Shown here: piece after piece, positions 11,655-30,239 of the stretch
How the letters are laid out: each line of letters opens with the position of its first letter
Position numbering within the stretch: position 1 is the first letter of the stretch
DNA from: Aureispira sp.
GTDB lineage: Bacteria > Bacteroidota > Bacteroidia > Chitinophagales > Saprospiraceae
Assembly (NCBI GenBank): GCA_024222455.1
Contig: JAAEPD010000278.1
Span: forward strand, 1 to 32,236
Direction: 5' to 3'
Length of the DNA: 32,236 nucleotides
Notes under the pieces: generated by a model
The model's database searches: none
What the model was told of the DNA's origin: nothing
The model's input: only the letters and a program-made list of their open reading frames with translations
Position numbers and translations under genes: made by a program

Positions 11655-11707
11655 ATAAGTATCCATTTGTTGAGAATTGATACTGATGTAGTAGTATTAT
11701 AATCTAT

Positions 11708-11788
11708 AGTCTGTGAGGCTTTTCTAACCAATTGGTTAGAAAAATTGACTACTATTTTTAGCTTGATAAAGTTAAAAATGCACAGACT
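11708..11788 (+). repeat. Three-stem repeat element, copy A, before the GHMP kinase gene
   Basis: 81 nt able to fold as a three-way junction. The outer stem is AGTCTGTG (11708-11715) with CACAGACT (11781-11788). Stem 2 is a perfect 10-bp hairpin (11720-11729 with 11734-11743). Stem 3 is 9 bp (11754-11762 with 11771-11779, loop TTGATAAA). The same layout occurs at 24680-24759 with paired changes. It ends 33 nt before the ATG at 11822. It could be an RNA leader or a small mobile palindromic repeat. Confidence 0.7.
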
Positions 11789-11821
11789 GTTAATAATAAA
11801 TAACAAAAAAAATAAATCGAC

Positions 11822-12775
11822 ATGAATTTTTCAATGCGTACCAACGGAAAATTGCTCCTAACAGGAGAATATTTCGTAACGGAAGGCGCTGTAGCTTTAG
11901 CGCTGCCTACCAATTTGGGGCAGGAGCTATCCGTTACAAGCAATCCGGAAGGCGAAGCAGCTACCTTACATTGGGATAGTTGTGATAGCGAGGGTAATGT
12001 TTGGTTTTCAGCCAAATTTGAATTGCCCAAAATGGATATCCTCGAAGTAGAAGAGGATAAAGAAATGAAGGACTTGGCAACCAACCTTCAAGATTTGCTT
12101 AAGGCAGCTAGAGCACTTAATTCTAAGTTTTTGAAGTCGGATGAGGCGCTTTATGCTAAAACAACTTTGGAGTTTCCTAGAGATTGGGGATTGGGCTCAA
12201 GTTCTACCTTAGTGACTATGGTTGCTCAGTGGGCAGATGTTGATCCTTTTGAGTTGTTAGAAAAAACATTTGGAGGTTCTGGCTATGACCTAGTAGCAGC
12301 TACAGCTGATGGTCCTCTACTATTTCAAAAGTTTAATGGCAAAAACCGTTGGGATAAGTCAGGATTCAATCCTTCTTTTAAGGAGCAATTGTATTTTGTG
12401 CATTTAGGCAAAAAACAGAGTTCTAAAGAGGCCTTGGTTTACTATATGGTTACGCCACCTGATGAGCGTGAAAAACCAATGGGACGTATCACACAGATCA
12501 CTTATGATATTGCTAAGTATACAGATTCTTTAGAGCAATTTGAAGAGTTGATTGCAGAGCATGAAGAATTGGTACAAAGTATAATCAAGCACCCTAGAGC
12601 TAAAGAGGAATACTTTGGTGATTATTGGGGAGAGGTGAAATCGCTTGGTGCCTGGGGCGGTGATTTTGTTTTAGCAACTAGTGATAGAAGTGAAGATGAA
12701 ACCAAAGCTTATTTTCAGGGCAAAGGCTTTGAAACAGTCTTAACCTACAGCGAAATGATAAAGGAATACGAATAA
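11822..12775 (+). CDS. GHMP kinase, mevalonate-pathway type (GYDIA-like family)
   Basis: A 317-residue cytoplasmic GHMP-fold kinase. Seen: an N-terminal strand with GKLLLTGEYFV, typical of mevalonate/phosphomevalonate kinases; the phosphate-binding loop WGLGSSSTL (122-130); and GSGYD (152-156), followed by LVAATADGPLL. This closely matches the Bacteroidota 'GYDIA' GHMP kinases, which are thought to phosphorylate mevalonate or phosphomevalonate. Diphosphomevalonate decarboxylase is encoded 8 kb further on (20946-21980), which supports that role. The exact substrate cannot be told from sequence alone. Its upstream region carries repeat element A, and a strong terminator follows, so it is probably a single-gene transcript. 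A second in-frame Met at codon 5 could also serve as start. Confidence 0.85.
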   Translation: MNFSMRTNGKLLLTGEYFVTEGAVALALPTNLGQELSVTSNPEGEAATLHWDSCDSEGNVWFSAKFELPKMDILEVEEDKEMKDLATNLQDLLKAARALNSKFLKSDEALYAKTTLEFPRDWGLGSSSTLVTMVAQWADVDPFELLEKTFGGSGYDLVAATADGPLLFQKFNGKNRWDKSGFNPSFKEQLYFVHLGKKQSSKEALVYYMVTPPDEREKPMGRITQITYDIAKYTDSLEQFEELIAEHEELVQSIIKHPRAKEEYFGDYWGEVKSLGAWGGDFVLATSDRSEDETKAYFQGKGFETVLTYSEMIKEYE

Positions 12776-12797
12776 ACATTTTTATGAATATATATAG

Positions 12798-12845
12798 CAA
12801 AACAGACTTAGCACATATTGGCGTTTAAGTCTGTTTTGTTGTTTT
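12798..12845 (+). terminator. Intrinsic terminator of the GHMP kinase gene
   Basis: A perfect 13-bp stem (12798-12810 with 12826-12838, 15-nt loop) lies 23 nt after the stop codon and is followed by TTGTTTT. It ends 16 nt before the next start codon, so the hydrolase-like gene may depend partly on read-through. Confidence 0.85.
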
Positions 12846-12860
12846 AAAAACCCAAAGTCA

Positions 12861-13685
12861 ATGAAAAAGTATATTATCACGAGTGTATTATTAGTTTTAG
12901 CATATGCAGCTTTTGCGCTCAATCCATCTCGAACCTATAAGCAACGCCCCGAAAAGTATAATATGGAGTATAAAGAGGTGAAAATAAAAACAAACGATGG
13001 CAAAGCTGAACTTAATATTTGGGACTTTCCTTGCAAATCAAAAAAGACAACAGCCTTAGTGCTTATTGCACATAGTGGAGAAGGCAACATGGCAGACTAT
13101 CTGCGTAGGGTAGATATGCTTAGAGCTGAATATAATGTAGTTCTTTTTGATTATAGAGGCTTTGGAGAAAGCAGCGAGTTTGAGATAGATAAGAATATGT
13201 ACATCTACCCACATTTTACAGATGATTTGGAGTCTATGATTGATTATTGCAGAAAGCAACATGTACAGACATTTAACCTATATGGATGGGGAATTGGAGC
13301 AGGAATGGCATTAGGTGTAGGCTATAACCGAACAGAAATCAATAGAATAATAGCAGATACTCCCTTTTTGAGTATGGAGGACTTAGAGAATCGTTTTGAG
13401 AGTTGGGATGAGCCTATGGAAGTACCTTTTGCAGGTTACGAAAAAAGATTTGAACCTATCAATGCATTTGACAATCCTCCAGCTAAAAATTTGACAGCTG
13501 TCAAATTTATTATTGGAAGCAATGATATACTCTACAAGGCAGCAGATCTTAAAACATTGCAAGCTAAGCAGAAAAAACTGGTGGGTAAAAATATTTATGT
13601 AGTAGAAAATCCTGACCGAAAAGATAATTTTAAGATAAATAAAGCAGCTTACACTAAGGAGGTATTGTCTTTCTTGAAAGGCTAG
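12861..13685 (+). CDS. Exported alpha/beta-hydrolase fold protein lacking catalytic Ser and His
   Basis: A 274-residue protein with a signal peptide (about 1-19) and a clear alpha/beta-hydrolase core. The oxyanion region is LVLIAHSGEGN (66-76), then VVLFDYRGFGESS (93-105), the elbow YGWGIGAG (141-148) and GSND (219-222). In active relatives the elbow reads GxSxG; here it is G142-W-G144-I-G146, so the nucleophile position is Gly (codon GGA). Asp222 stands where the acid is expected. The last 70 residues contain no histidine at all; the usual His position falls in NPDRKDNF. It is therefore probably a non-catalytic member (binding or scaffold), or uses other residues. The next gene starts 6 nt later, suggesting a two-gene unit. 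Confidence 0.78.
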   Translation: MKKYIITSVLLVLAYAAFALNPSRTYKQRPEKYNMEYKEVKIKTNDGKAELNIWDFPCKSKKTTALVLIAHSGEGNMADYLRRVDMLRAEYNVVLFDYRGFGESSEFEIDKNMYIYPHFTDDLESMIDYCRKQHVQTFNLYGWGIGAGMALGVGYNRTEINRIIADTPFLSMEDLENRFESWDEPMEVPFAGYEKRFEPINAFDNPPAKNLTAVKFIIGSNDILYKAADLKTLQAKQKKLVGKNIYVVENPDRKDNFKINKAAYTKEVLSFLKG

Positions 13686-13691
13686 TTTTGT

Positions 13692-14237
13692 ATGGAGGTA
13701 AATGTAAGATTAGATCAAAGTCCTAACGCTTTAGCTTTGTCGAAGCGTTGTACTCGCAATGGATCAGATGATTCTGATCCTTTCTATATGTCAGAGCTGA
13801 ATATCCTTGATGTGGAGAGCTTAGGGCCTATCACAAAGCAGAATATCTATTATTTCTTGTACTCCTTTGTGTTGAATATTCCGATAGAACGGTACCAAAA
13901 ACATATGGTACCTGATGTGCGAAATGAAAGGAATGAAGGCACAGACGCTTATTACTTCAATTTTGAACAAAAAAAGGTAGAGGAAAGGCTTTATGGTTAT
14001 TTGTGTGAGTATAAAGAATGGGTGCGTTCTCCTCTAAAAAAAGAAGAATACAAACCCTTTATGGATGAACTCTATGCTTATTTAGGGAAGGTTAAATTTT
14101 TTGTAATAAGTTGTGGCGATCTGTTCAAAACACCAAACTACTATTGTAGCAATATCAATATATTTGTAATAACACAAAACGAGCAACCTCAAACTAAAAA
14201 TAAGGTTGCTCTGTTTTCTTTTTTTGCTTCTGATTAG
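13692..14237 (+). CDS. Hypothetical protein, 181 residues
   Basis: No family recognised. It is a soluble, Tyr-, Glu- and Lys-rich protein without signal peptide or membrane segment. The middle part is helical (YYFLYSFVLNIPIERYQKH; VEERLYGYLCEYKEWV). It begins 6 nt after the hydrolase-like gene and is probably cotranscribed with it. Oddity: a good intrinsic terminator (14181-14225) lies inside the last 19 codons, so the end of the reading frame runs through a hairpin and T tract. The original stop may have been upstream and lost, or a frameshift may have extended the frame. The C-terminal part after about residue 150 should be treated with caution. Confidence 0.6.
   Translation: MEVNVRLDQSPNALALSKRCTRNGSDDSDPFYMSELNILDVESLGPITKQNIYYFLYSFVLNIPIERYQKHMVPDVRNERNEGTDAYYFNFEQKKVEERLYGYLCEYKEWVRSPLKKEEYKPFMDELYAYLGKVKFFVISCGDLFKTPNYYCSNINIFVITQNEQPQTKNKVALFSFFASD
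14181..14225 (+). terminator. Intrinsic terminator overlapping the end of the 181-residue ORF
   Basis: A 9-bp perfect stem (14181-14189 with 14203-14211) can be extended by AAAAC/GTTTT around one bulge, and is followed by TTTTCTTTTTTT. It would end the + strand transcript before the convergent gene at 14247-15272. It overlaps the coding frame, which is unusual. Confidence 0.75.
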
Positions 14238-14246
14238 TTCTTGCCC

Positions 14247-15272
14247 TTAAGGTCTATAGATTAAGTTTTGGTATTTCCAGTATTCATCAGAATCTATGTA
14301 CTCCTGTTTTACCACTTCTCCAGTTGCTGAAAGATATTTTTTGAGGACTAACTTCTTCTTTTTATCGTTCGTTTCTATATTGCCATCTTGATCATCAATA
14401 TCTGCTAATTTTTGTTTTAGCAAATCAATATTTTTGAGTTCAAATTCAAGGCTAGCTACTTCTAGTTTCTTTTCGCTATAAGGAATATTTTTAAGTTGCC
14501 CTTTACTATCTAAATAGTTGATCTTCCTTAAAAAACCATCTTCAAAATCATTGTGTAAGTAGGCTACTTCATAAGGATACAAGCGGCCAATTATTTGTTC
14601 TGAAAAGGAATATAAAAAGCGCAATATATCACCATTCTCATCTGTTAAAGTAACTTCTGATAATGATAATTGGCAATCGATATCAACTATCTTTTCCTTG
14701 AAATTGGTCGCTTTTTGGACAGCATATACAGCTGGCTCCATTATATTAGAAGACTTTTGGTACAAGGTAGCATCACTCAAAATATCTTGCACTATACTTT
14801 TGTCTTGCATAGCTTTTTTGTCAGAACTAATAACTAGGCTACCTTCTTTGAAATAGTATCGGTGTTTAGTGGTATCTGTTTCCTCTTTTTTGTAGGCATC
14901 TGAATGCATTGAAGCATTATACGTTAAGCGTGTTTTTTGCACCAAAAAAACTTGATCACTATCAAAGTAATATTCAGACAATAAAATACTATTAGGTCCA
15001 CTAAATTTTAAGGCTATTTTTTTGAGAGAATGCCTCTTGTAATGTTTGCTAAGGTGAATCATCCCCAAATTGTAGACAGACTCACCTTCTTTAGAATAGG
15101 CTTTGGGGTCACTTTCCTTATAGAAATCTGCGTCGGAGAATATGACATCTGTATACCCGTTACGTTCTAGGTCTATTTTTTTTGCTCGAGCATCATGCTG
15201 TTGAATGTCTTGAGCCTGTATATTCAGAAGGAAAAAACTACTCAGAAGTAGTGTCGTTATAAATATTTTCAT
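14247..15272 (-). CDS. Exported protein of unknown function, 341 residues
   Basis: A signal peptide (about 1-20, cleavage after IQAQ) is followed by a mainly beta-patterned polar region (LSEYYFDSDQVFLVQKTRLTY; YYFKEGSLVIS). The final ~70 residues include a Lys/Asp-rich helix with KKKKLVLKKYL. No known domain recognised. It is the last gene of a run of minus-strand exported proteins (14247-17541), 21 nt after the lipoprotein gene 15294-16415, so cotranscription is likely. The repeated 'change of text in, direction out' style segments (residue-rich YF.DS / YLDSKGQLKNI) are seen in many Bacteroidota outer-membrane-associated proteins, but I make no functional claim. Confidence 0.65.
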   Translation of the reverse strand: MKIFITTLLLSSFFLLNIQAQDIQQHDARAKKIDLERNGYTDVIFSDADFYKESDPKAYSKEGESVYNLGMIHLSKHYKRHSLKKIALKFSGPNSILLSEYYFDSDQVFLVQKTRLTYNASMHSDAYKKEETDTTKHRYYFKEGSLVISSDKKAMQDKSIVQDILSDATLYQKSSNIMEPAVYAVQKATNFKEKIVDIDCQLSLSEVTLTDENGDILRFLYSFSEQIIGRLYPYEVAYLHNDFEDGFLRKINYLDSKGQLKNIPYSEKKLEVASLEFELKNIDLLKQKLADIDDQDGNIETNDKKKKLVLKKYLSATGEVVKQEYIDSDEYWKYQNLIYRP

Positions 15273-15293
15273 AATAGTATTTCTAATTTTAAT

Positions 15294-16415
15294 TTAAAAT
15301 ATGCGAATAGATTCTATTGTTGCAGTAGGTTCAAAGTCAATGATTTTAAGAATAGTCATATCACTAGGGTTTTTAGGCAATTTACCTTTGAAATCCTTTG
15401 GGCTGAGCAAAAACTGGATACTACTCACAGCATCTATAGATTTAGCTTCTAAAACAAAACGATCGCTTACATAAGTATGCCATATTGTATATTGGGGATA
15501 AGTTTTTATGAACTCTTCTAAGGTAGAACCTATGCCAATATTTTCTTTAGTTTTGAGCAATGGAGATGTAATAAATAATTCAGCATTGGTTTCTTGTGCA
15601 GCCTGATCTAAAAAATGCATAGACTCTATGCTAGCCTGTCCCTCTAGAATTTTATAAACAAGACGTCGCCATGTGTTAATTTGTAAAGGATGTTCTGGCA
15701 AGTCTTGGTGCAAATAGCACAAGTTTTCTAGCTGTAGCGCTTCGTTTAGCAAATCTATGTGATGATTTACGCCACCTCTTATAGTACCTTCTGTCCACTT
15801 ATGAGTAGTTTCTACAATAGAACGATCTGCTATTCGATGAGCCTTGTTCAACCTCAATATATCAATATCATGACCAATACTGTCTTTTGAGGTATAAAGC
15901 AGGTAGAGCCTAAGATCATTACTATTGGTGTTATCCAACGCTTGTATATCACTTTGACTAAGCCCTTTAGGAAATGTAAACTCGTCTAATTCAAATGTTT
16001 TCAGAACAGCATCATTATTCTCAACATTAATAGATTTGCCCAACTCATTGGAGTGTGTTGTATATATTGTTTGCAAGCTAGGATAGTAACGATAGCTAGA
16101 ATGAGCTTTAGTAGCAACAGCATCACCTGTAACTGATCTATAATGCATTGGGAATTCAAAAAAAGGAAGGATAGCCGTTATAGGCGCAGCCTTAGTCACT
16201 TTTTTAGTTGAATTGTGAAGTTCCAATAATATAGGAGTCAAAATTTGAGCTTCTTCTTCTGAGAACTTCTTCTGAGATTTGAGCTTCTTAGCTTCTTGGT
16301 TATTGTAAAGGAATAGATCATCTATATGATAAGACTCCTTATTAATAGGGCTAGAACATGCAGCTAACCATAATCCTAATCCTATAAGTAGTATTGTATT
16401 TAGAATGTTTTTCAT
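15294..16415 (-). CDS. Lipoprotein of unknown function
   Basis: A 373-residue protein beginning MKNILNTILLIGLGLWLAAC, a standard lipoprotein signal with lipobox L-A-A-C (Cys at residue 20). Start choice: two more in-frame ATGs lie upstream (16424, 16436) but fall inside the previous gene. The ATG at 16415 comes 1 nt after that gene's stop codon and begins exactly at a normal signal peptide, so it is preferred. The mature part is mixed alpha/beta with no recognised domain; one stretch reads QINTWRRLVYKILEGQASIESMHFLDQAAQE. Its translation is likely coupled to the upstream lipoprotein gene. Confidence 0.68.
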   Translation of the reverse strand: MKNILNTILLIGLGLWLAACSSPINKESYHIDDLFLYNNQEAKKLKSQKKFSEEEAQILTPILLELHNSTKKVTKAAPITAILPFFEFPMHYRSVTGDAVATKAHSSYRYYPSLQTIYTTHSNELGKSINVENNDAVLKTFELDEFTFPKGLSQSDIQALDNTNSNDLRLYLLYTSKDSIGHDIDILRLNKAHRIADRSIVETTHKWTEGTIRGGVNHHIDLLNEALQLENLCYLHQDLPEHPLQINTWRRLVYKILEGQASIESMHFLDQAAQETNAELFITSPLLKTKENIGIGSTLEEFIKTYPQYTIWHTYVSDRFVLEAKSIDAVSSIQFLLSPKDFKGKLPKNPSDMTILKIIDFEPTATIESIRIF

Positions 16416-16416
16416 C

Positions 16417-17541
16417 TTAGTCATTTTGAGGGCCATAAGCTGCTCTTAGTTTACGATACGTTTCAGACGTTTGATATTGTACACAACGTTCTAATAGATT
16501 AGATTCCCATTCTTCATTTTCGGTAGGGCCATGTCCCATAGAGATCATATCTATATCTATATTGTCTTTGATATAATAAATGCAGGACCAAAGCCATTCA
16601 TGTGGAGCATTTTTAGGAACATATTCGATACTTTCAGAAGTAAAAATAAGTTCACCGTTTTGGAGGACTAAAGCATCTCTGTATTCATGCCCATTAGTAT
16701 CATTATATACTACCTTATATCTATCTGGATCTGTAGTTGCAGGAACCGTTACAATAATAATTTCTAGGTTAGGTTTCTCCAAAAAACAATAATGCCAATC
16801 TTCTGTAGGGTGTGTCATTTTTGGTGTAGATTCTAGACAAGTAGATACTTTATTTCCTACTAAAGAATCAATCTCTTTTACATAACTTTCTTTATCAAAA
16901 GCACTATTTTCTTTTTCTGTTTTTTGTTCAGATACTATTTTGAGTTGATCTCCATTTAATTCAAAAACTATAGTAACTTTATAATCTTGGAAAAATTCCT
17001 CTCTAACATTAACATAACTATAGCTATAATTGATCTTGATTTGCTGTTCAGTTTTCTCTAGTTCTATTTCCTCAAAACCCGTTTGTATAGTTGCTGTATA
17101 AGGTGTCGTGCCACAGTTTTCTAAGTTTTTAAGAGCAGTGGCATCTTGTGAAAATGCTTTTTTGAGTGGCCCTAAGTGTTCTTCAGAGCATTGGCAGCCC
17201 AAGTTTAGGGCAGAGAGTAGGAGACATTCTAGATTGCTACGATCTTCATTAGGTTTGTCATCCTTCCACCAACAGTCTGTGCCAATAGATAAGGCTATAT
17301 AACCTAAAGCCATCCGTTCGGGCTCTGTTATGTTGGTCATGAAGTCGTTGTCTATAACATACTCTGCGGTATTGTCAGGACCACCTATTTCTGTCCAAAG
17401 CACCTTTGTTGTTTTTGGAGTAGGGGTGGTGTTTTCTACAGAATCTTGTGCAGAAGTATTGTTTGTAGTTGAGTTGTTGTTGTCTGTTTGGGTACAGCTG
17501 ACAAGACTGATAAAGAATATAAGAATTGCTAAAAATTTCAT
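16417..17541 (-). CDS. Lipoprotein of unknown function with Cys-rich N-terminal half
   Basis: A 374-residue lipoprotein: signal MKFLAILIFFISLVSC with lipobox L-V-S-C (Cys16), then a Thr/Asn/Ser-rich tether (about 17-45). The following part holds several cysteines (CWWK, LECLLLSALNLGCQC, ENCGTT, CLEST, CFLEK, CIYYI, ERC), which suggests disulfides in an exported domain; no family recognised. Start choice: the frame extends to a TTG at 17559, but ATG 17541 starts the signal peptide and lies just after a good promoter (17557-17588), so it is used. It is first in a unit with 15294-16415 and 14247-15272. Confidence 0.68.
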   Translation of the reverse strand: MKFLAILIFFISLVSCTQTDNNNSTTNNTSAQDSVENTTPTPKTTKVLWTEIGGPDNTAEYVIDNDFMTNITEPERMALGYIALSIGTDCWWKDDKPNEDRSNLECLLLSALNLGCQCSEEHLGPLKKAFSQDATALKNLENCGTTPYTATIQTGFEEIELEKTEQQIKINYSYSYVNVREEFFQDYKVTIVFELNGDQLKIVSEQKTEKENSAFDKESYVKEIDSLVGNKVSTCLESTPKMTHPTEDWHYCFLEKPNLEIIIVTVPATTDPDRYKVVYNDTNGHEYRDALVLQNGELIFTSESIEYVPKNAPHEWLWSCIYYIKDNIDIDMISMGHGPTENEEWESNLLERCVQYQTSETYRKLRAAYGPQND

Positions 17542-17556
17542 AATAATAATTTTTCT

Positions 17557-17588
17557 CAAAGTTAGATAGTGTGTGTTAGAAGAGCAAA
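17557..17588 (-). promoter_or_regulatory. Bacteroidota-type promoter for the lipoprotein unit
   Basis: Read on the minus strand: TTTG (17588-17585), 20 nt, then TAACTTTG (17564-17557). This is an exact fit to the TTTG...TAnnTTTG pattern. Transcription would begin about 10 nt before the ATG at 17541, giving a very short leader and arguing against a start at 17559. Confidence 0.6.
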
Positions 17589-17620
17589 TGATTTTTCTTT
17601 AAAAGTTAAAGCTTCAAGCC

Positions 17621-18583
17621 TTAAAATCCAAGAGTACAACGAGGAAGCCTTTTTTTTAGCTGTTTGAGATCTTGTAAAAGTGATTCTGTTAGTTCTTCTG
17701 GTTGATAAAAATAAAAATATCGAAGTTTTGTTAGGTTTTGTAGTTCCTTAGGAAGGGAGGGGATAAGGCCATTATATGAAGAAGTAAAACTTAAATCTAA
17801 GTATTCTAAATTTTTTAAATTACCAATAGAGGAATCGAGTTCTATTAATGGATTCATTGTGAAATCAAGAGCTTTAAGGTTAGAAAGTTGACCTAATATT
17901 TTGGGGGTTTTATGGAAGAAGCAAGATGTAAAGTTTAGTTTTTGGAGTTGTTGGAGGTTAGCCATTTCTTTGGGTAAGGACTTGATAGGAGAATAAATCC
18001 AATCTAAGCGATTTAGATTTGTTAAGGAAGTTATTCCTTTAGGAATACTGTCTAAGCCTGAAAAGACAACAAGCAATGAATTGATATTAGGATGTGTTGT
18101 TTCCCAAAATTTATGATCAAAAATATCTTTTTTAGGACGGATTAAACATAGAACTTCTGTAGTTTTTGAAACTTCCTCTAAGCTAAGAGCTAATTGATAG
18201 GGGCGAGTGAGTTGATCTGCATATATAATAAAATTTTGTCCACTAGTATCTTGAGTAATAAAAAAAAAGTTTTGCTCTGCGTTTCCTATATCGATCACCT
18301 CCTCATACATATACTCAAACTCATCGTCTGTACCATCTAGAATCCAATATTCTAAATCTATAGCTTGGCAAAGCATTTTTACAGACTTCCATACTCCTAA
18401 GTTTTTAATAATCTTGCCTCGTTTTTTCTTGAAATACCAAAGGCTATCAGCTTTTTGGGTGAGTAAAAGTTTTTTGATGTTCCATGTTTTAGATTCATCA
18501 GTTGGATTACTTTGAGCTAGTGTGTGCGGAGTAGTACAACTACCAATAAAAAATAAGGAAAAAAAGAGGATTGAAAATTTCAT
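17621..18583 (-). CDS. Leucine-rich-repeat lipoprotein
   Basis: A 320-residue exported lipoprotein: signal MKFSILFFSLFFIGSC with lipobox I-G-S-C (Cys16). The first half (to about residue 165) is unrecognised. The second half holds about five leucine-rich repeats of 22-24 residues, for example SLTNLNRLDWIYSPIKSLP, NLQQLQKLNFTSC, QLSNLKALDFTMNPL, NLKNLEYLDLSF and NLTKLRYFYFY. LRRs of this type bind proteins at the cell surface; the partner is unknown. Start choice: the frame continues upstream to 18682, but ATG 18583 begins a proper lipoprotein signal and is preceded by a TATTTTTG box (18602-18609). It is separate from the downstream lipoprotein unit. Confidence 0.78.
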   Translation of the reverse strand: MKFSILFFSLFFIGSCTTPHTLAQSNPTDESKTWNIKKLLLTQKADSLWYFKKKRGKIIKNLGVWKSVKMLCQAIDLEYWILDGTDDEFEYMYEEVIDIGNAEQNFFFITQDTSGQNFIIYADQLTRPYQLALSLEEVSKTTEVLCLIRPKKDIFDHKFWETTHPNINSLLVVFSGLDSIPKGITSLTNLNRLDWIYSPIKSLPKEMANLQQLQKLNFTSCFFHKTPKILGQLSNLKALDFTMNPLIELDSSIGNLKNLEYLDLSFTSSYNGLIPSLPKELQNLTKLRYFYFYQPEELTESLLQDLKQLKKRLPRCTLGF

Positions 18584-18601
18584 GTGCTGTGTTTTATAGT
18601 A

Positions 18602-18609
18602 CAAAAATA
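18602..18609 (-). promoter_or_regulatory. Possible -7 box for the LRR lipoprotein gene
   Basis: TATTTTTG on the minus strand, 19 nt before the ATG at 18583, matches TAnnTTTG. No clear TTG/TTTG is seen at the -33 distance, so support is partial. Confidence 0.35.
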
Positions 18610-18738
18610 TTAGTGAATTTACAGTCTTGCTTCTAGACAGAAAGTGTGCCATGAGGATGGAAAAGAATACAAAAAGGAACAAGTGATAGCATAGCTTTAG
18701 TAAGTGGTCAAATTCCTTATTCTTTGGGGACGTTAATT

Positions 18739-18771
18739 AAAAAAGGACCAGCCAAGTTATTGACTAGTCCT
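18739..18771 (-). terminator. Intrinsic terminator of the ppk2 pair
   Basis: On the minus strand, AGGACTAG (18771-18764) pairs with CTGGTCCT (18751-18744) over 8 bp with one G-U, loop 12 nt, followed by six T. It lies 27 nt after the stop of the second ppk2 gene. Confidence 0.75.
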
Positions 18772-18797
18772 AAGTATATTGTTATTTGTCACTGTAG

Positions 18798-19598
18798 TTA
18801 TTCTTCATCTAAAGTACCATCTTGATAAGGGATTGTATCTAAAATGTATTGCAATGCTTCGATGCGAGCCTCTGTTTTTCTATTGGCATTGATAACAACC
18901 CAAGGAGATGCTTCTGTATTGGTATGCTTAAACATCTGTTTTTTGTACATACTATACTTGCCCCAAAGTTCCTGAGCTTTTTTGTCTACATCAGTCATTT
19001 TCCATTTTTTGAGTGGGCTATTTCTAATTTCTTTGAATCGAGTAGCTTGTTCTTCTTTAGATATAGAAAAGTACAGTTTGAGAAGGTAGGTGTCTGATTG
19101 TAAAATCATTTTTTCAAAATCGTTGACCTGATCCATAAAAATTTTATACTGTTCATCTGTACAGAAACCATTTACAGGTTCTACTATTGCTCTATTGTAC
19201 CAACTTCGATCAAAAAATACAATCTCGCCAGGTTTGGGGAGTTGATTTACATAGCGTTGGAAGTACCATTGACCAGCTTCTTCGCTAGTAGGTTTTGGGA
19301 GAGCTACCTTCCTGAAATAACGAGGGTTGATATGAGCTGTGATACGTCGTATAGCACCACCTTTGCCAGCAGCATCACGTCCTTCAAAAATAATGACGAT
19401 CTTTTTTTTATTTTTCATCGTCCAATTTTGGACTTTGATAAGCTCTGTTTGAAGCTCTTTGAGTTTAGTCTCGTATTTAGCAAAACGAAGAGCCTTTTTT
19501 ATATCCGTTTTTTTATCTGCAAAAAGGTTTTTTAGGCCAACACGAGTATTGAGTAGTTCCAGTTCTTCTGGAGTAATATCCAATAATTTATTTTTCAT
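18798..19598 (-). CDS. ppk2: Polyphosphate kinase 2 family protein (second of a tandem pair)
   Basis: A 266-residue cytoplasmic PPK2 enzyme, which moves phosphate between inorganic polyphosphate and nucleotides. Seen: Walker A EGRDAAGKG (72-80), the lid-entry QWYFQRYVNQLPKPGEIVFFDRSWYNRA with Walker B FFDRSWYNR (128-136), and downstream KKWKMTDVDKKAQELW. The length and single PPK2 domain fit class I-type enzymes; whether ADP, GDP or AMP is used cannot be read from the sequence. Start choice: ATG 19598; an in-frame TTG at 19613 would add five residues without support. It follows the paralogue at 19622-20476 by 23 nt, so they form one operon ended by the hairpin at 18739-18771. Confidence 0.9.
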   Translation of the reverse strand: MKNKLLDITPEELELLNTRVGLKNLFADKKTDIKKALRFAKYETKLKELQTELIKVQNWTMKNKKKIVIIFEGRDAAGKGGAIRRITAHINPRYFRKVALPKPTSEEAGQWYFQRYVNQLPKPGEIVFFDRSWYNRAIVEPVNGFCTDEQYKIFMDQVNDFEKMILQSDTYLLKLYFSISKEEQATRFKEIRNSPLKKWKMTDVDKKAQELWGKYSMYKKQMFKHTNTEASPWVVINANRKTEARIEALQYILDTIPYQDGTLDEE

Positions 19599-19621
19599 AA
19601 TAAGAATGTTCAATTGATTGA

Positions 19622-20476
19622 TTAAATATCGATTTGTTCCATGTGTCTATAGTATCTTAAGATCACATTAGGGTCGGGCAAAATGCTTGTTTTGCTTCTA
19701 GTATGCCCTGTATAATTAAATCTAGAAAGAACATATCGAATACTCTCTAGGCGTGCAACTCGTTTTTGATTTGTTTTGACAATAATCCAAGGACTAAAGG
19801 TCGTATGTGTTTTAGAAAACATTTGTTCCTTATAATGACTGTATTTGTCCCAAAGTTCTTGACCTTTTTTATCAACAGGACTGAATTTCCATTTTTTGAG
19901 TGGATTTTCCAATCTAGATTGGAAGCGTTTACTTTGTTCTTCTTTAGAGATAGAGAACCAAAATTTGATTAGAATAACCCCATCCTCATACAACATATGT
20001 TCAAACTCAGGCACCTGAACCATAAATTTATCATACTGTGCCTTATTACAAAAACCCATTACAGGCTCTACTACAGCTCTGTTGTACCAACTACGGTCAA
20101 AAAAAACAATTTCACCAGGGTTTGGTAGTTCTTTGATGTATCTGCGGAAGTACCACTGTCCTGTTTCTACTTCTGTAGGTTTAGATAGTGCAACCACTCG
20201 CATTGATCTAGGGTTGAGGTGTTCCGTAAATCGTTTGATAGAGCCTCCTTTACCTGCTGCATCACGCCCTTCAAATAAGATGGCAACACGCAATTTTTTT
20301 CTAGAAACCCATCGTTGAAAATTAACTAATTCTGCTTGTAGCAGCTTCAATTCCTCTTCATAGCGCAAGTTTCGTAATACTTTTTTGATATTAATACCTT
20401 TTTTGGCAGCTATATCCATCAAGTCTTTACGCTTTGATACTTTCCTCAAGTCTTCGAGGTTATACCTATTCTCCAT
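19622..20476 (-). CDS. ppk2: Polyphosphate kinase 2 family protein (first of a tandem pair)
   Basis: A 284-residue PPK2 enzyme. Seen: Walker A EGRDAAGKGG (69-78), QWYFRRYIKELPNPGEIVFFDRSWYNRA with Walker B (125-133), and KKWKFSPVDKKGQELW. It is clearly similar to the product of the next gene over the whole core, but differs at its N- and C-termini; here there is an additional basic tail with SKTSILPDPNVILRYYRHM. Having two PPK2s suggests different nucleotide preference or opposite preferred directions (polyP-driven NTP synthesis versus polyP storage); this is inference. It is first in the two-gene operon, divergent from the mvaD unit across a 469-nt gap. Confidence 0.9.
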   Translation of the reverse strand: MENRYNLEDLRKVSKRKDLMDIAAKKGINIKKVLRNLRYEEELKLLQAELVNFQRWVSRKKLRVAILFEGRDAAGKGGSIKRFTEHLNPRSMRVVALSKPTEVETGQWYFRRYIKELPNPGEIVFFDRSWYNRAVVEPVMGFCNKAQYDKFMVQVPEFEHMLYEDGVILIKFWFSISKEEQSKRFQSRLENPLKKWKFSPVDKKGQELWDKYSHYKEQMFSKTHTTFSPWIIVKTNQKRVARLESIRYVLSRFNYTGHTRSKTSILPDPNVILRYYRHMEQIDI

Positions 20477-20839
20477 TTTAGCTTTGTTTTGTAGTTTTAA
20501 AAATGACCCTTAAGATCGCTATCTCAAAGGATGTAGAGTATGACCTAAGTCATTATAAATAGTGATTATGATAAGCTGTTTTCTATATAGTGAGTGAGTG
20601 TATTCACAAGACAAAATTGCTCTAAGGTTGAATGTGTTAATGTTGAATAAAAACAAGGAAGATACCCCTTTTTGAGTCTTGAAAACGAAGCTTAAATAAT
20701 AAGATTTTCCTAAAAATAAGAGTAAAAAAATACCAAAAAAACATTAGACTTTCAACATTCAACCAATAAACATTGAGAATGAGCATCTAAATTCCCTTTA
20801 GAGATTTAGATGTGTTTACCCTAAGTGTATCTATGCTTT

Positions 20840-20872
20840 TTTGTTAGAGATTGATGGATTTTATTATTTTTG
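20840..20872 (+). promoter_or_regulatory. Bacteroidota-type promoter for the mvaD unit
   Basis: TTTG (20840-20843), 21 nt, then TATTTTTG (20865-20872) matches the -33/-7 pattern. Transcription would start near 20877 and give a leader of about 70 nt that contains the dyad at 20894-20929. Confidence 0.6.
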
Positions 20873-20893
20873 CTGAACAATTCGCTAAAAGTG

Positions 20894-20929
20894 ATATTAC
20901 TAGTGCATTATTTGACATATTAGTAATAT
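20894..20929 (+). promoter_or_regulatory. Dyad in the mvaD leader
   Basis: ATATTACTA (20894-20902) and TAGTAATAT (20921-20929) are perfect 9-bp reverse complements around an 18-nt loop, 16 nt before the mvaD ATG. They could form a leader hairpin near the ribosome site or a dimeric regulator site. Confidence 0.4.
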
Positions 20930-20945
20930 ACAAAATCTATAGATA

Positions 20946-21980
20946 ATGAAAATAACTTGGCAGAGCCCATCTAACTTAGCATTAATAAAATATTGGGGCA
21001 AACACGGAAGACAATTACCCCAAAATGCTTCTATTAGTTTGACCTTACAAAACGCATATTCTGAGACTTCTTTATCCTATGCAGAAAAAGAGGATGATGG
21101 GAAACTAGATTTAGATTTTTATTTTGAAGGTAAATCTAACCCTGCTTTTGGAGCACGTATAGAGAAGTTTTTAAACTCTATAGTAGAGGAAGAATTTCCA
21201 TTCTTGACAGCATATAAGCTGAAAATTGAGTCACACAACTCATTCCCTCATTCTGCAGGTATTGCTTCTTCGGCTTCAAGTATGAGTGCATTGGCACTTT
21301 GCCTAATGTCTATGGAGCGGATGGTAAGCATAACACTGCCTAACGAAGAACTCTTCTATAAAAAAGCCTCTCATATAGCACGTTTGGGTTCTGGGTCAGC
21401 AAGTCGCTCTGTTTATCCTTATGTTTCGGTGTGGGGTAAGACTAGCCATATCCCTAAAGCGGATGACGAATTTGCTATTCCTTATGCCAATGAGGTACAC
21501 AGTACCTTCCAAAACTTCCATGATGATATTCTAATGGTGAGTAAACAGGAAAAAAGTGTGTCTAGTTCGGCCGGACATGGTCTAATGGAAGGCAACCCAT
21601 TTGCAGCTATACGTTATCAGCAAGCGCATGAAAATATGGGTAAATTATTGCCAGCAATGCAAGCTGGAGATCTAGAAACTTTTGGAGAGATTACAGAGGC
21701 AGAAGCGCTAATGTTACATGCTTTGATGATGACATCTAAACCTTCTTATATATTAATGGAGGGCAACTCTCTAGAAATAATTAAGCGTGTGCAAGCATGG
21801 AGAAAGGAGACTAAAAATCCTTTGTATTTTAGTTTAGATGCTGGACCTAATTTGCATTTGTTATATCCCAATAGTATTCAGCAAGAAGTTAGCGATTTTA
21901 TCAACAGCGATTTAATTCAATTTTGCCAAGATGGTCAGTACCTAAAAGATAGAATAGGAAACGGACCAAAACAATTATAG
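20946..21980 (+). CDS. mvaD: Diphosphomevalonate decarboxylase
   Basis: Last enzyme of the classical mevalonate route: ATP-dependent decarboxylation of diphosphomevalonate to isopentenyl diphosphate, in the cytoplasm. It is a 344-residue GHMP-fold protein. Seen: N-terminal SNLALIKYWGKHG (KYWGK 15-19) and NASISLTL, characteristic of the family; the phosphate loop HSAGIASSASS (102-112); ARLGSGSASRS (145-155); and near residue 292 DAGPN, containing the catalytic Asp. Length is within the usual 310-400 range. It lies first in a + strand unit, 4 nt ahead of the parvulin-like lipoprotein gene. With the GHMP kinase at 11822-12775 it shows that isoprenoids are made by the mevalonate pathway, although the other enzymes are not in this window. 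Confidence 0.93.
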   Translation: MKITWQSPSNLALIKYWGKHGRQLPQNASISLTLQNAYSETSLSYAEKEDDGKLDLDFYFEGKSNPAFGARIEKFLNSIVEEEFPFLTAYKLKIESHNSFPHSAGIASSASSMSALALCLMSMERMVSITLPNEELFYKKASHIARLGSGSASRSVYPYVSVWGKTSHIPKADDEFAIPYANEVHSTFQNFHDDILMVSKQEKSVSSSAGHGLMEGNPFAAIRYQQAHENMGKLLPAMQAGDLETFGEITEAEALMLHALMMTSKPSYILMEGNSLEIIKRVQAWRKETKNPLYFSLDAGPNLHLLYPNSIQQEVSDFINSDLIQFCQDGQYLKDRIGNGPKQL

Positions 21981-21984
21981 TATA

Positions 21985-22827
21985 ATGCATAAATACGGAT
22001 ATTTACTAATCTTTATATTAGGTTTGGTAGCCTGTGGAGGTACTGAAACAGAGGAAAAACAAGATGAACCTGCATTGGCCAAGGCACACGATCAGGTATT
22101 GTATGCCTCTGATATGGATGGAATAGGGGCAGGTCTTTCGAGTGAGGATAGTCTTTATCAAGTCAAGATGTATATTGAGAAATGGATACAAGATAAGCTT
22201 TTGCTAGAGGTAGCAGAAAGCAATGTATCTAATTTGGGTAAGATAGATCGTCTAGTAGCAGAATATAGAGCTTCTTTGATCCTCAATCAATACGAGCAAG
22301 CTTTGGTACAAGAGCGGTTAGACTCTTCTGTGACACCTCAACAGTTGGCAGATTATTATACCAAAAACAAAGAACAATACCAGTTTGGTTTGAGTTGGGT
22401 ACGTTGCCATTTTGTAAAAGTCTATCGGAAAATGGACGGGGTAAAAGACTTAAGGAAATGGTTTAAATCTGATGATGGGTTAGATTTTGATCGAGTCAAA
22501 TTATATTGTTCTGAGAACAAAACTGTACATATCTTAGACGAAGATACTTGGATCCGATTTGATAAATTGTTAAATCAAATTCCGAAGTCGGCTATCGAAC
22601 GTAGGCATTTGGAAGGTAGGTCTGTTTTGGACAAAACGGATGATAATCATCAATATTTACTTAGAATATTTGAATATAGAGATAAAAACGAGGCAACCCC
22701 TTTGCAAGAAGTAAAAGAAGAGGTGCGTCGAATAATCTTGCATCAACGACGTTCTCAAATATTGCAGGATGTACGTCGAGAAATTTACCAAAAAGGTAAA
22801 ACAGATGACAGTTTTGAAATTTATTAA
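21985..22827 (+). CDS. SurA/parvulin-like periplasmic lipoprotein
   Basis: A 280-residue lipoprotein with lipobox L-V-A-C (Cys17) in MHKYGYLLIFILGLVACGG. Next comes a helical chaperone-like segment (YIEKWIQDKLLLEVAESN...IDRLVAEYRASLILNQYEQAL), the link SVTPQQLADYYTKNKEQYQ, a region placed like a PPIC rotamase domain (about 130-235), and a final helix TPLQEVKEEVRRIILHQRR. This order is that of SurA-type peptidyl-prolyl isomerases, which help outer-membrane proteins fold. The rotamase part lacks the usual GGxLGW motif, so it may act only as a chaperone. It sits 4 nt after mvaD and is probably cotranscribed with it. The family is inferred from architecture. Confidence 0.68.
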   Translation: MHKYGYLLIFILGLVACGGTETEEKQDEPALAKAHDQVLYASDMDGIGAGLSSEDSLYQVKMYIEKWIQDKLLLEVAESNVSNLGKIDRLVAEYRASLILNQYEQALVQERLDSSVTPQQLADYYTKNKEQYQFGLSWVRCHFVKVYRKMDGVKDLRKWFKSDDGLDFDRVKLYCSENKTVHILDEDTWIRFDKLLNQIPKSAIERRHLEGRSVLDKTDDNHQYLLRIFEYRDKNEATPLQEVKEEVRRIILHQRRSQILQDVRREIYQKGKTDDSFEIY

Positions 22828-22848
22828 TGAATGTAATTTTTAATTGAA

Positions 22849-23481
22849 ATGAAGAATCTATCCCTTTTTCTCCTAACAGTATTAGCCTTTTCTTTATGGT
22901 CTTGTGGTGATGCAGAACCAACTAACAATTCGGAGTCAGATCCTAACACAACAGAGCATAACGAAACTGAAAATACAGATGCAACTGTTGACCATACCAC
23001 AGATGCTCCTGCTACATTGTCTATTGCACAAGATGTAAAAATAACTGCCGAAAAAGAACCTGATGAGCGAGGCTCTTATTGGGGGAGTCCTATGAAAGCA
23101 GAGTTGGCTGAAGGCTTTAGTATAGTAACTAAATCAGCTGATAAAGGTACTAAAGATTGGATGTTGGAAGAGTATACACTCCAAAAAGGAGGAGAGGTGC
23201 TTTATACATTTCCACACAAGGAAGAAGATATGCGTAGTGCTTTAGTCAATGCTACTCCAGATGCACAATGGTACCCTAAAGTACTTACCAAAGGCACACA
23301 AACAGCTATAGTTATGGCTCGTTATATGGGAGAAGATGCACCTAAGGCACATTTGGTAGATGTTATCAAAATTGAAGATGGGAAATATGTGGATTATTTA
23401 GAAGATGTAGCAGAGTATAATTATACAGATGACCTAACTAAAGAAGCTATAGAAGCATTGTTTGCCAAGACCTTTGAATAA
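22849..23481 (+). CDS. Lipoprotein of unknown function, 210 residues
   Basis: Signal MKNLSLFLLTVLAFSLWSC with lipobox L-W-S-C (Cys19), then an Asn/Glu/Thr/Asp-rich tether (about 20-60). The compact C-terminal domain (about 62-210) contains SYWGSPMKAELAEGF, WYPKVLTKGTQTAIVMARYMG and a final helix DLTKEAIEALFAKTFE. No family recognised. It lies 21 nt after the parvulin-like gene, so it is likely third in the mvaD unit. The acidic low-complexity tether is like those used to hold domains away from the membrane. Confidence 0.65.
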   Translation: MKNLSLFLLTVLAFSLWSCGDAEPTNNSESDPNTTEHNETENTDATVDHTTDAPATLSIAQDVKITAEKEPDERGSYWGSPMKAELAEGFSIVTKSADKGTKDWMLEEYTLQKGGEVLYTFPHKEEDMRSALVNATPDAQWYPKVLTKGTQTAIVMARYMGEDAPKAHLVDVIKIEDGKYVDYLEDVAEYNYTDDLTKEAIEALFAKTFE

Positions 23482-23526
23482 AAAGCGTGGAAACTTCAAA
23501 TTATTAAAAAGATAATAACTATATTT

Positions 23527-23690
23527 AGAGCATGTTAAAATTTATTCTAATTGTTAATATGAAATGCCAATTTCTATAGCTTAGCAGCTTTTTTTACCAC
23601 AATAGCTAAGGCTATTATTCTAAAAAAGAGCTTTAATCTCTAAAAATTACATGCTCATATTATTCAAAATAATAACTTTAAACATGCTCT
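23527..23690. repeat. Palindromic intergenic block bounded by a 10-bp inverted repeat
   Basis: AGAGCATGTT (23527-23536) and AACATGCTCT (23681-23690) are perfect inverted ends of a 164-nt block. Inside, ATAGC-TTAGC pairs with GCTAA-G-GCTAT across one bulge, and a further short hairpin lies at TTATT...AATAA. No transposase is present. It could be a MITE-like insertion or a structured 3' region. Confidence 0.5.
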
Positions 23691-23719
23691 TAACCAGAAG
23701 AGAGCTTTCCTAGCCAATT

Positions 23720-24589
23720 ATGAATATTCAACAGCCAAAAACTATGAGAACCCATACTTTACTGCTGGTTTTGCTATATATAGTACTGTATTTACCCTCT
23801 TGTGTAACTATTACAAATGAGGAAATGTCTGATGGTGTATTGCCAGATACAGTTGTTTTATCTATAGAGCCTAAGCGTACAGATGTCCAAATACAACAAA
23901 CAGATACTACATACGATATTATTTCGTATTGGACAGATCCTGTTACAGGACGTATTTTGTATACAGCCGAGACAGAGTCTTATAAGCACGGACAGTTGCA
24001 TGGGACTAAAATAGAATGGAACGAAAACGGAGATACTGTTCACCTTTCTTTTTGGGAGGATGGTATTCATGTAGATTCTTCTCTCAACTGGTATGACTCT
24101 AGAGTGGTGAAACAACGCGTTTTTTATTCGCTAAAGCGTAATGGCAATAAAGAGTATGAAGTAAACTATCATCCTAATGGAAAATCTTCTACAGATACAA
24201 TCTGGTATACCAATGGATGGAGAAATGGTGCAGTAACGTACTATGATACTACAGGATATAGAGCTACTGAAACTTACTTCTATGCAGATAATGAGTTGAT
24301 CGGTATTGAGATATATAATGATCAATACTTAGCTCTAGACCGAAATGCAAGAAACTTACGTCAACAAATTTATTTGGATTCTATCAAGCAGTCTAAAGAT
24401 ACTTTATTGACTACTGTATTTGCAGAGCAAGAGAAGAAGCAACAAGATGAGTCTTCGGCAGCTTATAGCGAATGGGACAATTCAGATGAAGATTCTGAAT
24501 ACCTACTGAAAGAGTTAAAAGGCGAATTGCCTGAACCTAAGGCAGATTCTGCCGAAACAAAAGATGGAGAGACAGGACAAGGGACATAG
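23720..24589 (+). CDS. MORN-2-like repeat lipoprotein
   Basis: A 289-residue lipoprotein (lipobox L-P-S-C) with tandem YwqK/MORN-2-like repeats in the middle: YKHGQLHGTKIEWNENGDTV, EYEVNYHPNGKSSTDTIWY, NGWRNGAVTYYDTTGY, then ETYFYADNELIGIEIY. Such repeats (W/Y-x-NG-x2-G-x4-Y) are common in Bacteroidota exported proteins; some are labelled 'YwqK antitoxin', but there is no toxin gene here. The C-terminus (about 225-289) is a charged, low-complexity Glu/Asp/Lys tail. Start: ATG 23720 is given; ATG 23744 would start right at the signal peptide and is equally possible. A strong terminator follows. Confidence 0.72.
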   Translation: MNIQQPKTMRTHTLLLVLLYIVLYLPSCVTITNEEMSDGVLPDTVVLSIEPKRTDVQIQQTDTTYDIISYWTDPVTGRILYTAETESYKHGQLHGTKIEWNENGDTVHLSFWEDGIHVDSSLNWYDSRVVKQRVFYSLKRNGNKEYEVNYHPNGKSSTDTIWYTNGWRNGAVTYYDTTGYRATETYFYADNELIGIEIYNDQYLALDRNARNLRQQIYLDSIKQSKDTLLTTVFAEQEKKQQDESSAAYSEWDNSDEDSEYLLKELKGELPEPKADSAETKDGETGQGT

Positions 24590-24641
24590 TGTTTCTGTAG
24601 GGTTTAGTAAACTATAAATTAAAATTTGAAGCAAAATATAG

Positions 24642-24676
24642 AGCGAAGGACTAGTTCCTTCGCTTTTCTTATTTTC
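24642..24676 (+). terminator. Intrinsic terminator after the MORN-like gene
   Basis: A perfect 9-bp stem AGCGAAGGA/TCCTTCGCT (24642-24650 with 24656-24664, 5-nt loop) is followed by TTTTCTTATTTT. It separates the mvaD-side unit from aroB; repeat element B starts immediately after it. Confidence 0.88.
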
Positions 24677-24679
24677 ATT

Positions 24680-24759
24680 AGTCTGTGAAGTTTTTCTAAC
24701 GGTTTGTTAGAAAATAGCACTACTATTTTTAGCTTGATAAAGTTAAAAATGCATGGACT
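24680..24759 (+). repeat. Three-stem repeat element, copy B, before aroB
   Basis: 80 nt with the same layout as copy A. The outer stem is AGTCTGTG with CATGGACT (two G-U pairs instead of Watson-Crick). Stem 2 is 9 bp perfect (24692-24700 with 24706-24714). Stem 3 is identical to copy A (24725-24733 with 24742-24750, loop TTGATAAA). Stem 2 loop and flanks differ from copy A while pairing is kept. It ends 22 nt before the aroB ATG. Confidence 0.7.
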
Positions 24760-24781
24760 ATTAATTAAAAAATAGCATTAT

Positions 24782-25855
24782 ATGATAGATGCAGGAACTT
24801 ACCAGATTGTATTTGAGCAAGATTCATTTAGTTATTTGAATGAGTTACTTAGCAAAAAAAAATATTCTAAGCATTTTGTATTAGTTGATGAGAATACTCA
24901 GGAGCATTGTTTACCTATTCTTCAAGGAGCTTTAGGAACTTATGAACTCCAAGTTATAACTATTGCAGCAGGGGAGGAACATAAAAATTTGGAAACCTGC
25001 CAGCAAATATGGCAACAACTTTTGGCACTTGGAGCAGACCGAAAAGCTGTCTTGCTCAACTTGGGTGGTGGAGTGATTGGCGATATGGGTGGTTTTTGTG
25101 CAAGCACCTTCAAGAGAGGGATGGATTTCATACAACTGCCTTCTACCTTGCTCTCACAAGTAGATGCTTCGGTTGGTGGTAAGTTGGGAGTTGATTTTGA
25201 GCAGGTGAAAAATATAATAGGCCTATTCAATACTCCTCAAGCAGTGATTGTGCATAGTGATTTTTTGAAAACATTGCCATTAAGAGAAATATACAGCGGT
25301 TTTGCCGAAACGATCAAACATGCCTTAATTCAAGATAAGGAACAATGGACTAAAATAAGTCAGTGGACTAGTTTAGAAAATGTAGATTGGGCACCTGTAA
25401 TAGAACATTCCATTCAAATTAAAAATAGGATTGTCCAACAAGATCCGACAGAACAGAATATTCGAAAGTCTTTAAATTTTGGACATACTATAGGGCATGC
25501 TTTAGAGAGTTTGAGTTTTCAGACTGCTGCGCCTTTATTGCATGGTGAGGCTGTGGCTATTGGGATGATTTGTGAGAGCTATTTGTCTCATAAATTGTTG
25601 GGTATGTCTCCACAGGGGTTGAAAGAAATTACCGATTTTATTTTGAACTTATACACCTTCCCACCATTAGCCGCACTAGAAGAAAAAGCTTTTTTGCAGT
25701 TGATACAACAAGACAAAAAGAACGAACAAGAACAGCTCTGTTTTACCTTGTTGAAAGGGATAGGTGAATTTGCTATTAATATAGACATTGGAGTGGAGGC
25801 TATTTTGGAAAGTATTGAGTACATACAAAAAGAGTTAACTATTAAACAAATATAG
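24782..25855 (+). CDS. aroB: 3-dehydroquinate synthase
   Basis: Second step of the shikimate pathway: closes DAHP to 3-dehydroquinate with NAD+ and a divalent metal, in the cytoplasm. At 357 residues the length is usual. Seen: NAD-binding GGGVIGDMGGF (95-105), QLPSTLLSQVDASVGGK (118-134), KNIIGLF (143-149), and the three metal ligands Glu176 (FAETIKH), His235 (FGHTIGHALE) and His254 (LHGEAVAIGM). It is the first gene after a strong terminator, with repeat element B in its leader region. aroC follows after one intervening gene, so two chorismate-pathway steps are probably expressed together. Confidence 0.95.
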   Translation: MIDAGTYQIVFEQDSFSYLNELLSKKKYSKHFVLVDENTQEHCLPILQGALGTYELQVITIAAGEEHKNLETCQQIWQQLLALGADRKAVLLNLGGGVIGDMGGFCASTFKRGMDFIQLPSTLLSQVDASVGGKLGVDFEQVKNIIGLFNTPQAVIVHSDFLKTLPLREIYSGFAETIKHALIQDKEQWTKISQWTSLENVDWAPVIEHSIQIKNRIVQQDPTEQNIRKSLNFGHTIGHALESLSFQTAAPLLHGEAVAIGMICESYLSHKLLGMSPQGLKEITDFILNLYTFPPLAALEEKAFLQLIQQDKKNEQEQLCFTLLKGIGEFAINIDIGVEAILESIEYIQKELTIKQI

Positions 25856-30197: not shown

Positions 30198-30239
30198 TTT
30201 TAAACGACAATATTTAATTTAGATATTATTATATAATAT

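Follow-up and report, generated by a model that had tools for sequence, protein, structure and literature searches.

This locus raises the question of whether a folded element that occurs twice, each time shortly before a start codon, is an RNA leader of the genes behind it or a mobile repeat that came to rest there. The window, the whole stretch of DNA analyzed here, comprises 32,236 nucleotides (nt) of Aureispira sp. contig JAAEPD010000278.1 (assembly GCA_024222455.1, forward strand), and a preliminary description had reported two copies of the element in it, here called A and B, and had offered both readings. We find that A and B are very probably insertions of one non-autonomous mobile family resembling miniature inverted-repeat transposable elements (MITEs), with about 100 copies in the genome, moved by an enzyme that makes 6-base-pair (bp) cuts and folded when transcribed. 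This MITE-like family with covarying ends is new, no description of it having been found in the literature searched. The element is a tiny, probably non-coding piece of mobile DNA, and we infer that it also functions as RNA.

Copies A and B are located where the preliminary description put them, and RNA folding recovered the same three-way junction of stems P1, P2 and P3 in both (Table 1), with folding-energy z-scores of -7.2 for copy A and -5.0 for copy B (0 of 200 shuffles equally good). P3 is the same in the two copies (ATTTTTAGCTT GATA AAGTTAAAAAT), while P2 has 10 bp in copy A and 9 bp in copy B, with different tips; in the 3' strand of P1, a C-to-T and an A-to-G change give G-U pairs in copy B. 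The stems agree with what had been claimed, as does the spacing to the start codons (ATG at 11822 for copy A and at 24782 for copy B). Pairing of P1 is kept between A and B, but both changes are one-sided and the window contains no true compensatory P1 pair; such pairs do appear in the wider family.

Across the family, the element extends from CATTAGTC to GACTATTA. Its P1 consensus is approximately TAGTNYRT paired with AYRNACTA, that of P2 is TTTTCTAA.../...TTAGAAAA and that of P3 approximately ATTTTTAGCTT-GATA-AAGYTAAAAAT, and the joining sequences AAG (between P1 and P2) and ACTGC (between P2 and P3) are conserved. P1 and its neighbors make up terminal inverted repeats of about 12-20 bp, judged by eye. 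The distance from P1 end to P1 end is 33-145 nt in the 99 two-ended copies, with two main sizes: a short form of ~83 nt and a long form of ~140 nt, in which P2 has 21 bp and a loop of ~45 nt. By size class, 51 copies measure 61-95 nt, 22 exceed 130 nt, six fall at 96-130 nt and 20 are no longer than 60 nt. Deletion derivatives of 33-60 nt retain their two ends but lack parts of the interior, several of these deletions lying apparently, by eye, between short direct repeats; those at L138, L154, L156, L157, L162, L165, L166 and L169 are minimal hairpins of about 33-57 nt, some with exact 6-bp duplications (L156, L157).

With copy A as the query, the host genome yielded 43 matches, including short ones on the opposite strand. 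Using a covariance model and alignment built from 21 clean copies, we then obtained 110 matches at E<=0.01 in the 7.76-Mb genome (150 candidates scored), three of which are opposite-strand shadows, so the repeat occurs far beyond chance. The same model gave no match in 39 other genomes (24 from the family and 15 from the order; 112 candidates scored per genome), a comparison set in which the host, an assembly of 683 contigs, is the sole genome of its genus. A 23-base core pattern had one match among 84,980 species genomes (L137, in a gammaproteobacterial metagenome-assembled genome), which is not an element, and no match among viral contigs, both collections possibly leaving out records of or near the host.

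For the catalogue of copies, we used 96 model matches at E<0.001, a set that already leaves out one opposite-strand shadow; one of them (C87:12338) was added later, and 79 of the remaining 95 copies had both ends by fixed anchors. A pattern search for 5' ends found 96 places, compared with 10 expected from a reversed control, plus two more. With 18 of 25 extra 5' ends outside the model list and three other copies added, C81 dropped, and C531 and C682 given corrected 3' ends, the catalogue holds 99 copies; several tests were done on earlier sets of 87 or 79. Gene calls throughout are open reading frames (ORFs) of at least 80 amino acids (aa), not an annotation.

The evidence for mobility comes from the borders of the element. 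A 6-bp direct repeat flanks CATTAGTC...GACTATTA exactly in 14 of the 99 two-ended copies (GCTAGA, TTAGAT and AGAGAA are examples), and five of the six flank positions are identical in a further class of 16, against expectations of 0.2 and 2.2, respectively, when left and right flanks from different copies are paired. Flank identity in 79 copies is 0.46-0.58 at the six positions, with 0.33-0.41 expected, and falls to near background beyond them. Good duplications (five or six of six) are present in every size class. Terminal inverted repeats are present as well: in 79 copies, 585 of 632 P1 pairs are matched, whereas shuffled halves give 539 on average and at most 553 in 2,000 shuffles. Together with the roughly 100 dispersed copies, unrelated neighboring genes and both orientations, these features support the mobile palindromic repeat that the preliminary description had named as its second option.

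The element would be moved in trans by a transposase making 6-bp staggered cuts, since lost or not found, whose gene would be expected to lie between CATTAGTNNRTGAAG and the corresponding other end. A single strand of the element is predicted to fold so that the terminal repeats pair as P1 and P2 and P3 form the arms of the junction, the P2 arm being extended in the long form. Between co-directional genes, the element should be included in the mRNA, forming a structured segment either in the leader or between cistrons, where it may alter stability or processing, by analogy with BOX- and ERIC-type repeats. The 25 extra 5' ends gave no larger autonomous form, only elements up to ~145 nt or lone ends (11 further one-mismatch ends lie outside this count).

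Two other routes of movement were considered and rejected. For retroposition via 5'-truncated copies, seven apparent lone 3' ends gave two upstream 6-mer matches (at 90 and 187 nt), a number compatible with chance; one of the seven, C471, resembles a divergent complete copy by eye. REP/RAYT elements, which move as single strands by a Y1 transposase, are not known to leave a target duplication and have a RAYT (Y1) gene in the genome. Here, 6-bp duplications are present, and the host genome has a single Y1 (IS200/IS605-type) match, a fragment that lies where its contig ends (C662:1-144). A copy of the element is found 3.5 kb from this fragment on the same contig (C662:3685-3764).

Insertions are not placed evenly with respect to genes. 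The right-hand gene is co-directional with the element in 77 of 98 cases and not in 21, where symmetry would give one half, while left-hand genes divide 49 to 46 by direction; the gene contexts are tandem sense (++) in 42 copies, tandem antisense (--) in 14, divergent in 32 and convergent in six. Co-directional starts lie 9-45 nt 3' of the element in 41 of 77 cases, and starts of genes reading away leftward fall in that range in 16 of 46, both being raw counts with no genome-wide spacer background. Downstream proteins are diverse: 10 of the 47 listed were searched, all had a Pfam match, and two share a response-regulator domain while the others differ. Given this placement bias and the diversity of the genes that follow, the element comes to lie, or is tolerated, in the short spacers 5' of genes, mostly in sense, and is not the leader of one pathway. 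Pairing-preserving changes and gene proximity with orientation bias, which the preliminary description had associated with a functional leader, were thus both found, and yet the element is a mobile repeat.

The preliminary description had also taken the structure to be under selection, and here the family bears it out, in that the stems stay paired although both partners have changed, with G-U favored over A-C on one strand. In 21 short copies, 97.4% of cells pair (38-51% with slid partners, 94.9% with 3' letters shuffled inside columns), and both sides have changed in 23 cells where 7.1 would be expected, a value reached in 0 of 500 column shuffles. In 23 long copies, 93.8% of cells pair (37-47% slid, 90.5% column-shuffled) and 48 are changed on both sides against 20.5 (again 0 of 500 shuffles); within the long-form P2, 8 of 21 pairs have changed on both sides.

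The middle three pairs of P1 vary most between copies. These triplets are perfectly complementary in 42 of the 99 copies and come in 10 types, with a null mean of 10.6 and a maximum of 22 in 5,000 shuffles. Among 50 short copies, the type of triplet is weakly linked to relatedness of the interior (p 0.055 for the left and 0.005 for the right triplet; nearest neighbors have the same type in 6 of 50), which makes it hard to put the matching down to a handful of founder subfamilies. Perfect triplets occur in 14 of 29 antisense and 16 of 37 sense copies, and in 14 of 30 copies with good, 14 of 38 with middling and 14 of 31 with poor duplications. Because matching is about equally frequent in sense, antisense, recent and old insertions, it probably predates insertion and arose in the active copies.

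The strands of the element are not equivalent. Among deviating pairs, G-U outnumbers A-C by 83:20 in the long alignment (23 copies) and by 34:7 in the short one (21 copies), omitting pairs whose commonest form is G-U. Folding favors the + over the - strand in 89 of 99 copies, with a mean difference of 7.1 kcal/mol. Within P1, the ratio is 25:5 in 37 sense and 10:12 in 29 antisense copies (permutation by copy, p 0.0075), or 22:1 and 10:10 among copies of at least 70 nt (26 and 26); the sense figure had been 21:1 in 27 copies before deletion forms were added, which reduced the contrast. Unpaired P1 pairs number 0.35 per sense copy and 0.86 per antisense copy (p 0.013). The concerted change of the two ends, with a preference for G-U over A-C on the + strand, means that the folded + strand matters, and a folded single strand, most likely RNA, seems to be under selection. 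Our reading is that folding of the + strand counted within the lineage of the active copies and that P1 is under some further constraint in copies borne on mRNA, the second half of this statement being the weaker. The simplest account would be that source copies were selected as transcribed RNA and that sense insertions remain under some constraint; the other candidates for the covarying ends are a cycle through a folded strand and the repair of imperfect palindromes.

A number of observations weigh against an RNA-folding MITE-like family and need to be set beside this evidence. Nothing in ordinary MITE biology explains why the ends should covary. No empty site was seen among the genomes compared, of which the host is the only one from its genus. 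No clear 6-bp duplication is kept at copy A or copy B, and no transposase bounded by element ends was found among the 12 enzyme matches, from four families searched, that were checked at their loci (five DDE_Tnp_1, two rve, one Y1_Tnp fragment and four RVT_1). Counted by pairs, the excess of changes on both sides is modest: six against 3.2 in the short copies, reached by 11 of 500 shuffles, and 11 against 7.9 in the long copies, reached by 26 of 500. Cell counts are not independent events, the shuffles ignore relatedness, and the score used to place ends rewarded pairing, G-U included, which may inflate pairing slightly. As matching is as common in antisense as in sense copies, selection by host genes cannot be its origin. 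The G-U pairs of P3 are shared by descent, so the better folding of the + strand is partly inherited, and the folding-energy difference between strands is alike in sense and antisense copies (p 0.12). The G-U bias of P2 and P3 is independent of gene setting, the division of P1 into sense and antisense was chosen after seeing the data, and copies before a divergent sense start depart from the sense pattern (P1 6:5).

The rival that survives best, though we hold it to be unlikely, is a mobile element that cycles through its folded + strand (RNA to DNA, or single-stranded DNA as in attC), so that the paired ends rather than their sequence are recognized and drift in concert, and that nevertheless makes a 6-bp duplication. 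Recognition by pairing would explain end covariation in every class of copy, and such a cycle fits the 10 types of matched triplets found irrespective of gene orientation and apparent age, the near absence of a link between triplet type and interior relatedness, the G-U bias on one strand and the covariation of the long-form P2. A fixed 6-bp duplication is, however, the mark of a double-strand staggered cut, and the single-strand elements IS200/IS605 and attC are not known to make one. In addition, the families searched yielded no candidate enzyme, the end triplets are imperfect in some of the copies whose duplications are exact, and the retron reverse transcriptase beside one copy has its own, different tandem units. 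If true, a folded-strand cycle would make the element a bacterial counterpart of a short interspersed nuclear element (SINE), or else place it in a new class intermediate between MITEs and folded sites of the attC type.

Neither an integron nor a retron accounts for the element: no cassette arrays as expected of attC sites were seen, and it occurs at one of four RVT_1 loci, where the adjoining retron has its own tandem units, resembling non-coding RNA (ncRNA), upstream. At that locus (contig C470, L122), the best-scoring copy lies 44 nt 5' of a type XIII retron reverse transcriptase, the gene at 1102-2649 (PADLOC RT_XIII, E 2.4e-201). The tandem array upstream of this gene occupies positions 1-960 and consists of three complete units and one partial unit at a spacing of 256-286 nt, the contig starting inside the array. 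Flanks are conserved between its units, as is a 30-nt segment surrounding the loop (ATTCACGGATTCGAGTCGTAGACTCTAAAT), but each unit has its own 35-nt inverted-repeat stem, 97-100% complementary; the stem of unit 2 is unrelated, and those of units 1 and 3 are partly alike. The array looks like a retron with several ncRNAs bearing different msd stems.

A second rival, to which we give somewhat less credence, is quasi-palindrome correction, in which template switching in DNA replication would keep the ends matched without selection on structure. Template switching is known to act on perfect hairpins, several deletion derivatives resemble, by eye, slippage between short repeats, and the antisense P1 ratio of 10:12 would fit. 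This process predicts exact Watson-Crick repair with equal G-U and A-C leftovers, as opposed to the observed 83:20 and 34:7, and the strand bias counts against palindrome repair as the sole cause.

That the element is the cis-regulatory leader of a regulon (a riboswitch or attenuator), as the preliminary description had also proposed, is very improbable: the conserved three-way junction with its AAG and ACTGC joining sequences, the covariation, the leader position and the orientation bias would suit it, but the target-site duplications, the unrelated genes (no common pathway among the 10 proteins), the 14 tandem antisense copies, the equal matching of end triplets in antisense, the presence in one of 40 genomes searched and the graded internal deletions disfavor it, as do the absence of any Rfam match in the window at the gathering score (at E<=10, copy A as the query gave chance-level matches alone) and of any terminator-like site (GC-rich hairpin plus T run) inside copies A and B, the two copies scanned.

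Table 1 Features of copies A and B and their surroundings in the window
Feature	Position	Strand	Basis
Copy A, short form, CTATAGTC to GACTGTTA	11704..11792	+	covariance-model score 102.8 bits
Copy A, P1 5' strand (left terminal repeat)	11706..11715	+	RNA folding
Copy A, P2 hairpin, 10 bp, AATT loop	11720..11743	+	RNA folding
Copy A, P3 hairpin, 12 bp, GATA loop	11753..11780	+	RNA folding
Copy A, P1 3' strand (right terminal repeat)	11781..11790	+	RNA folding
Gene 3' of copy A, 29 nt past element end	11822..12775	+	ORF; no Pfam match at E<=0.001
Terminator-like hairpin just 5' of copy B, outside element	24640..24666	+	terminator scan
Copy B, short form, CATTAGTC to GACTATTA	24676..24763	+	covariance-model score 93.1 bits
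Copy B, P1 5' strand	24679..24687	+	RNA folding
Copy B, P2 hairpin, 9 bp	24692..24714	+	RNA folding
Copy B, P3 hairpin, 12 bp, GATA loop	24724..24751	+	RNA folding
Copy B, P1 3' strand; two G-U pairs, Watson-Crick in copy A	24752..24760	+	RNA folding
aroB (3-dehydroquinate synthase), 18 nt past copy B end	24782..25855	+	Pfam

Of the two gene names proposed earlier for the window, aroB was upheld (Pfam PF01761 and PF24621); 'GHMP kinase', given to the protein at 11822-12775, was not, and that label rests on motif resemblance. The terminator-like hairpin in Table 1 ends directly before copy B and leaves ~115 nt, mostly element, for an aroB promoter. Because the hairpin lies immediately 5' of the copy, aroB may be transcribed from a promoter in or very near copy B; no sigma-70-like site was found near copy B by a scan that does not cover Bacteroidota promoters. 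Copy A is preceded by no terminator-like hairpin. Elsewhere in the window, four small membrane proteins of 141-153 aa lie in tandem at 28911-30710 and look related by eye, and two adjacent similar genes (271 and 284 aa) lie on the - strand at 18798-20476, which from their motifs look like polyphosphate kinase 2 paralogues.

Several known systems invite comparison, made here by description rather than by sequence. ERIC and Correia (NEMIS) repeats of Gram-negative bacteria have short and long forms produced by internal deletion, paired ends, positions beside genes and an effect on mRNA processing. Correia elements insert at TA, unlike the Aureispira element with its 6-bp duplications. In integron attC sites, a folded single strand is recognized, its structure conserved while its sequence is free and its terminal loop variable; the Aureispira element differs in its 6-bp duplication and in that no cassette arrays were seen. 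The target duplication of bcr1 is 5 bp. Porphyromonas, the host of the BrickBuilt MITE, belongs like Aureispira to the Bacteroidota.

In the excerpted text of one account, effects of ERIC and Correia repeats on mRNA cleavage are mentioned, and BOX and RUP of Streptococcus pneumoniae are small interspersed repeats treated as MITEs, with ends that pair in predicted RNA; BOX is modular, has longer forms and is transcribed as 5' or 3' extensions of operons (PMC3049150). The Aureispira element is like BOX and RUP in its small size and paired ends, and like BOX in having longer forms, but its three-way junction and 6-bp duplication set it apart; ends that vary in a matched way go unmentioned for BOX and RUP in that excerpt. 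The bcr1-bcr3 repeats of the Bacillus cereus group are, in the portions consulted, MITE-like and often located in untranslated regions or operon spacers, bcr1 having 147-167 nt and a conserved structure and bcr3 alone being reported to correlate with mRNA decay rate (PMC3446304, PMC2267715). They differ from the Aureispira element in host phylum and duplication length. For BrickBuilt of Porphyromonas gingivalis, the excerpted source gives predicted stem-loops, single-nucleotide polymorphisms that maybe suggest compensatory mutations, 23-nt internal repeats, ends GAGACCTT, duplications of variable length and both ends in 4 of 19 copies (PMC4596501). On that partial account, BrickBuilt is a different thing from the Aureispira element, though it too is a MITE of the Bacteroidota.

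Bacterial MITEs are usually explained as double-stranded DNA that is recognized by sequence at both ends. In the Aureispira family, the often matched variation of the ends, antisense and recent insertions included, and the G-U bias of one strand are a countable sign that the folded strand is important to the element. With about 100 natural variants, it becomes testable whether structured repeats such as BOX, bcr1 and ERIC are selected as RNA or merely carried. For the host, the family amounts to one folded module in dozens of operon spacers and leaders.

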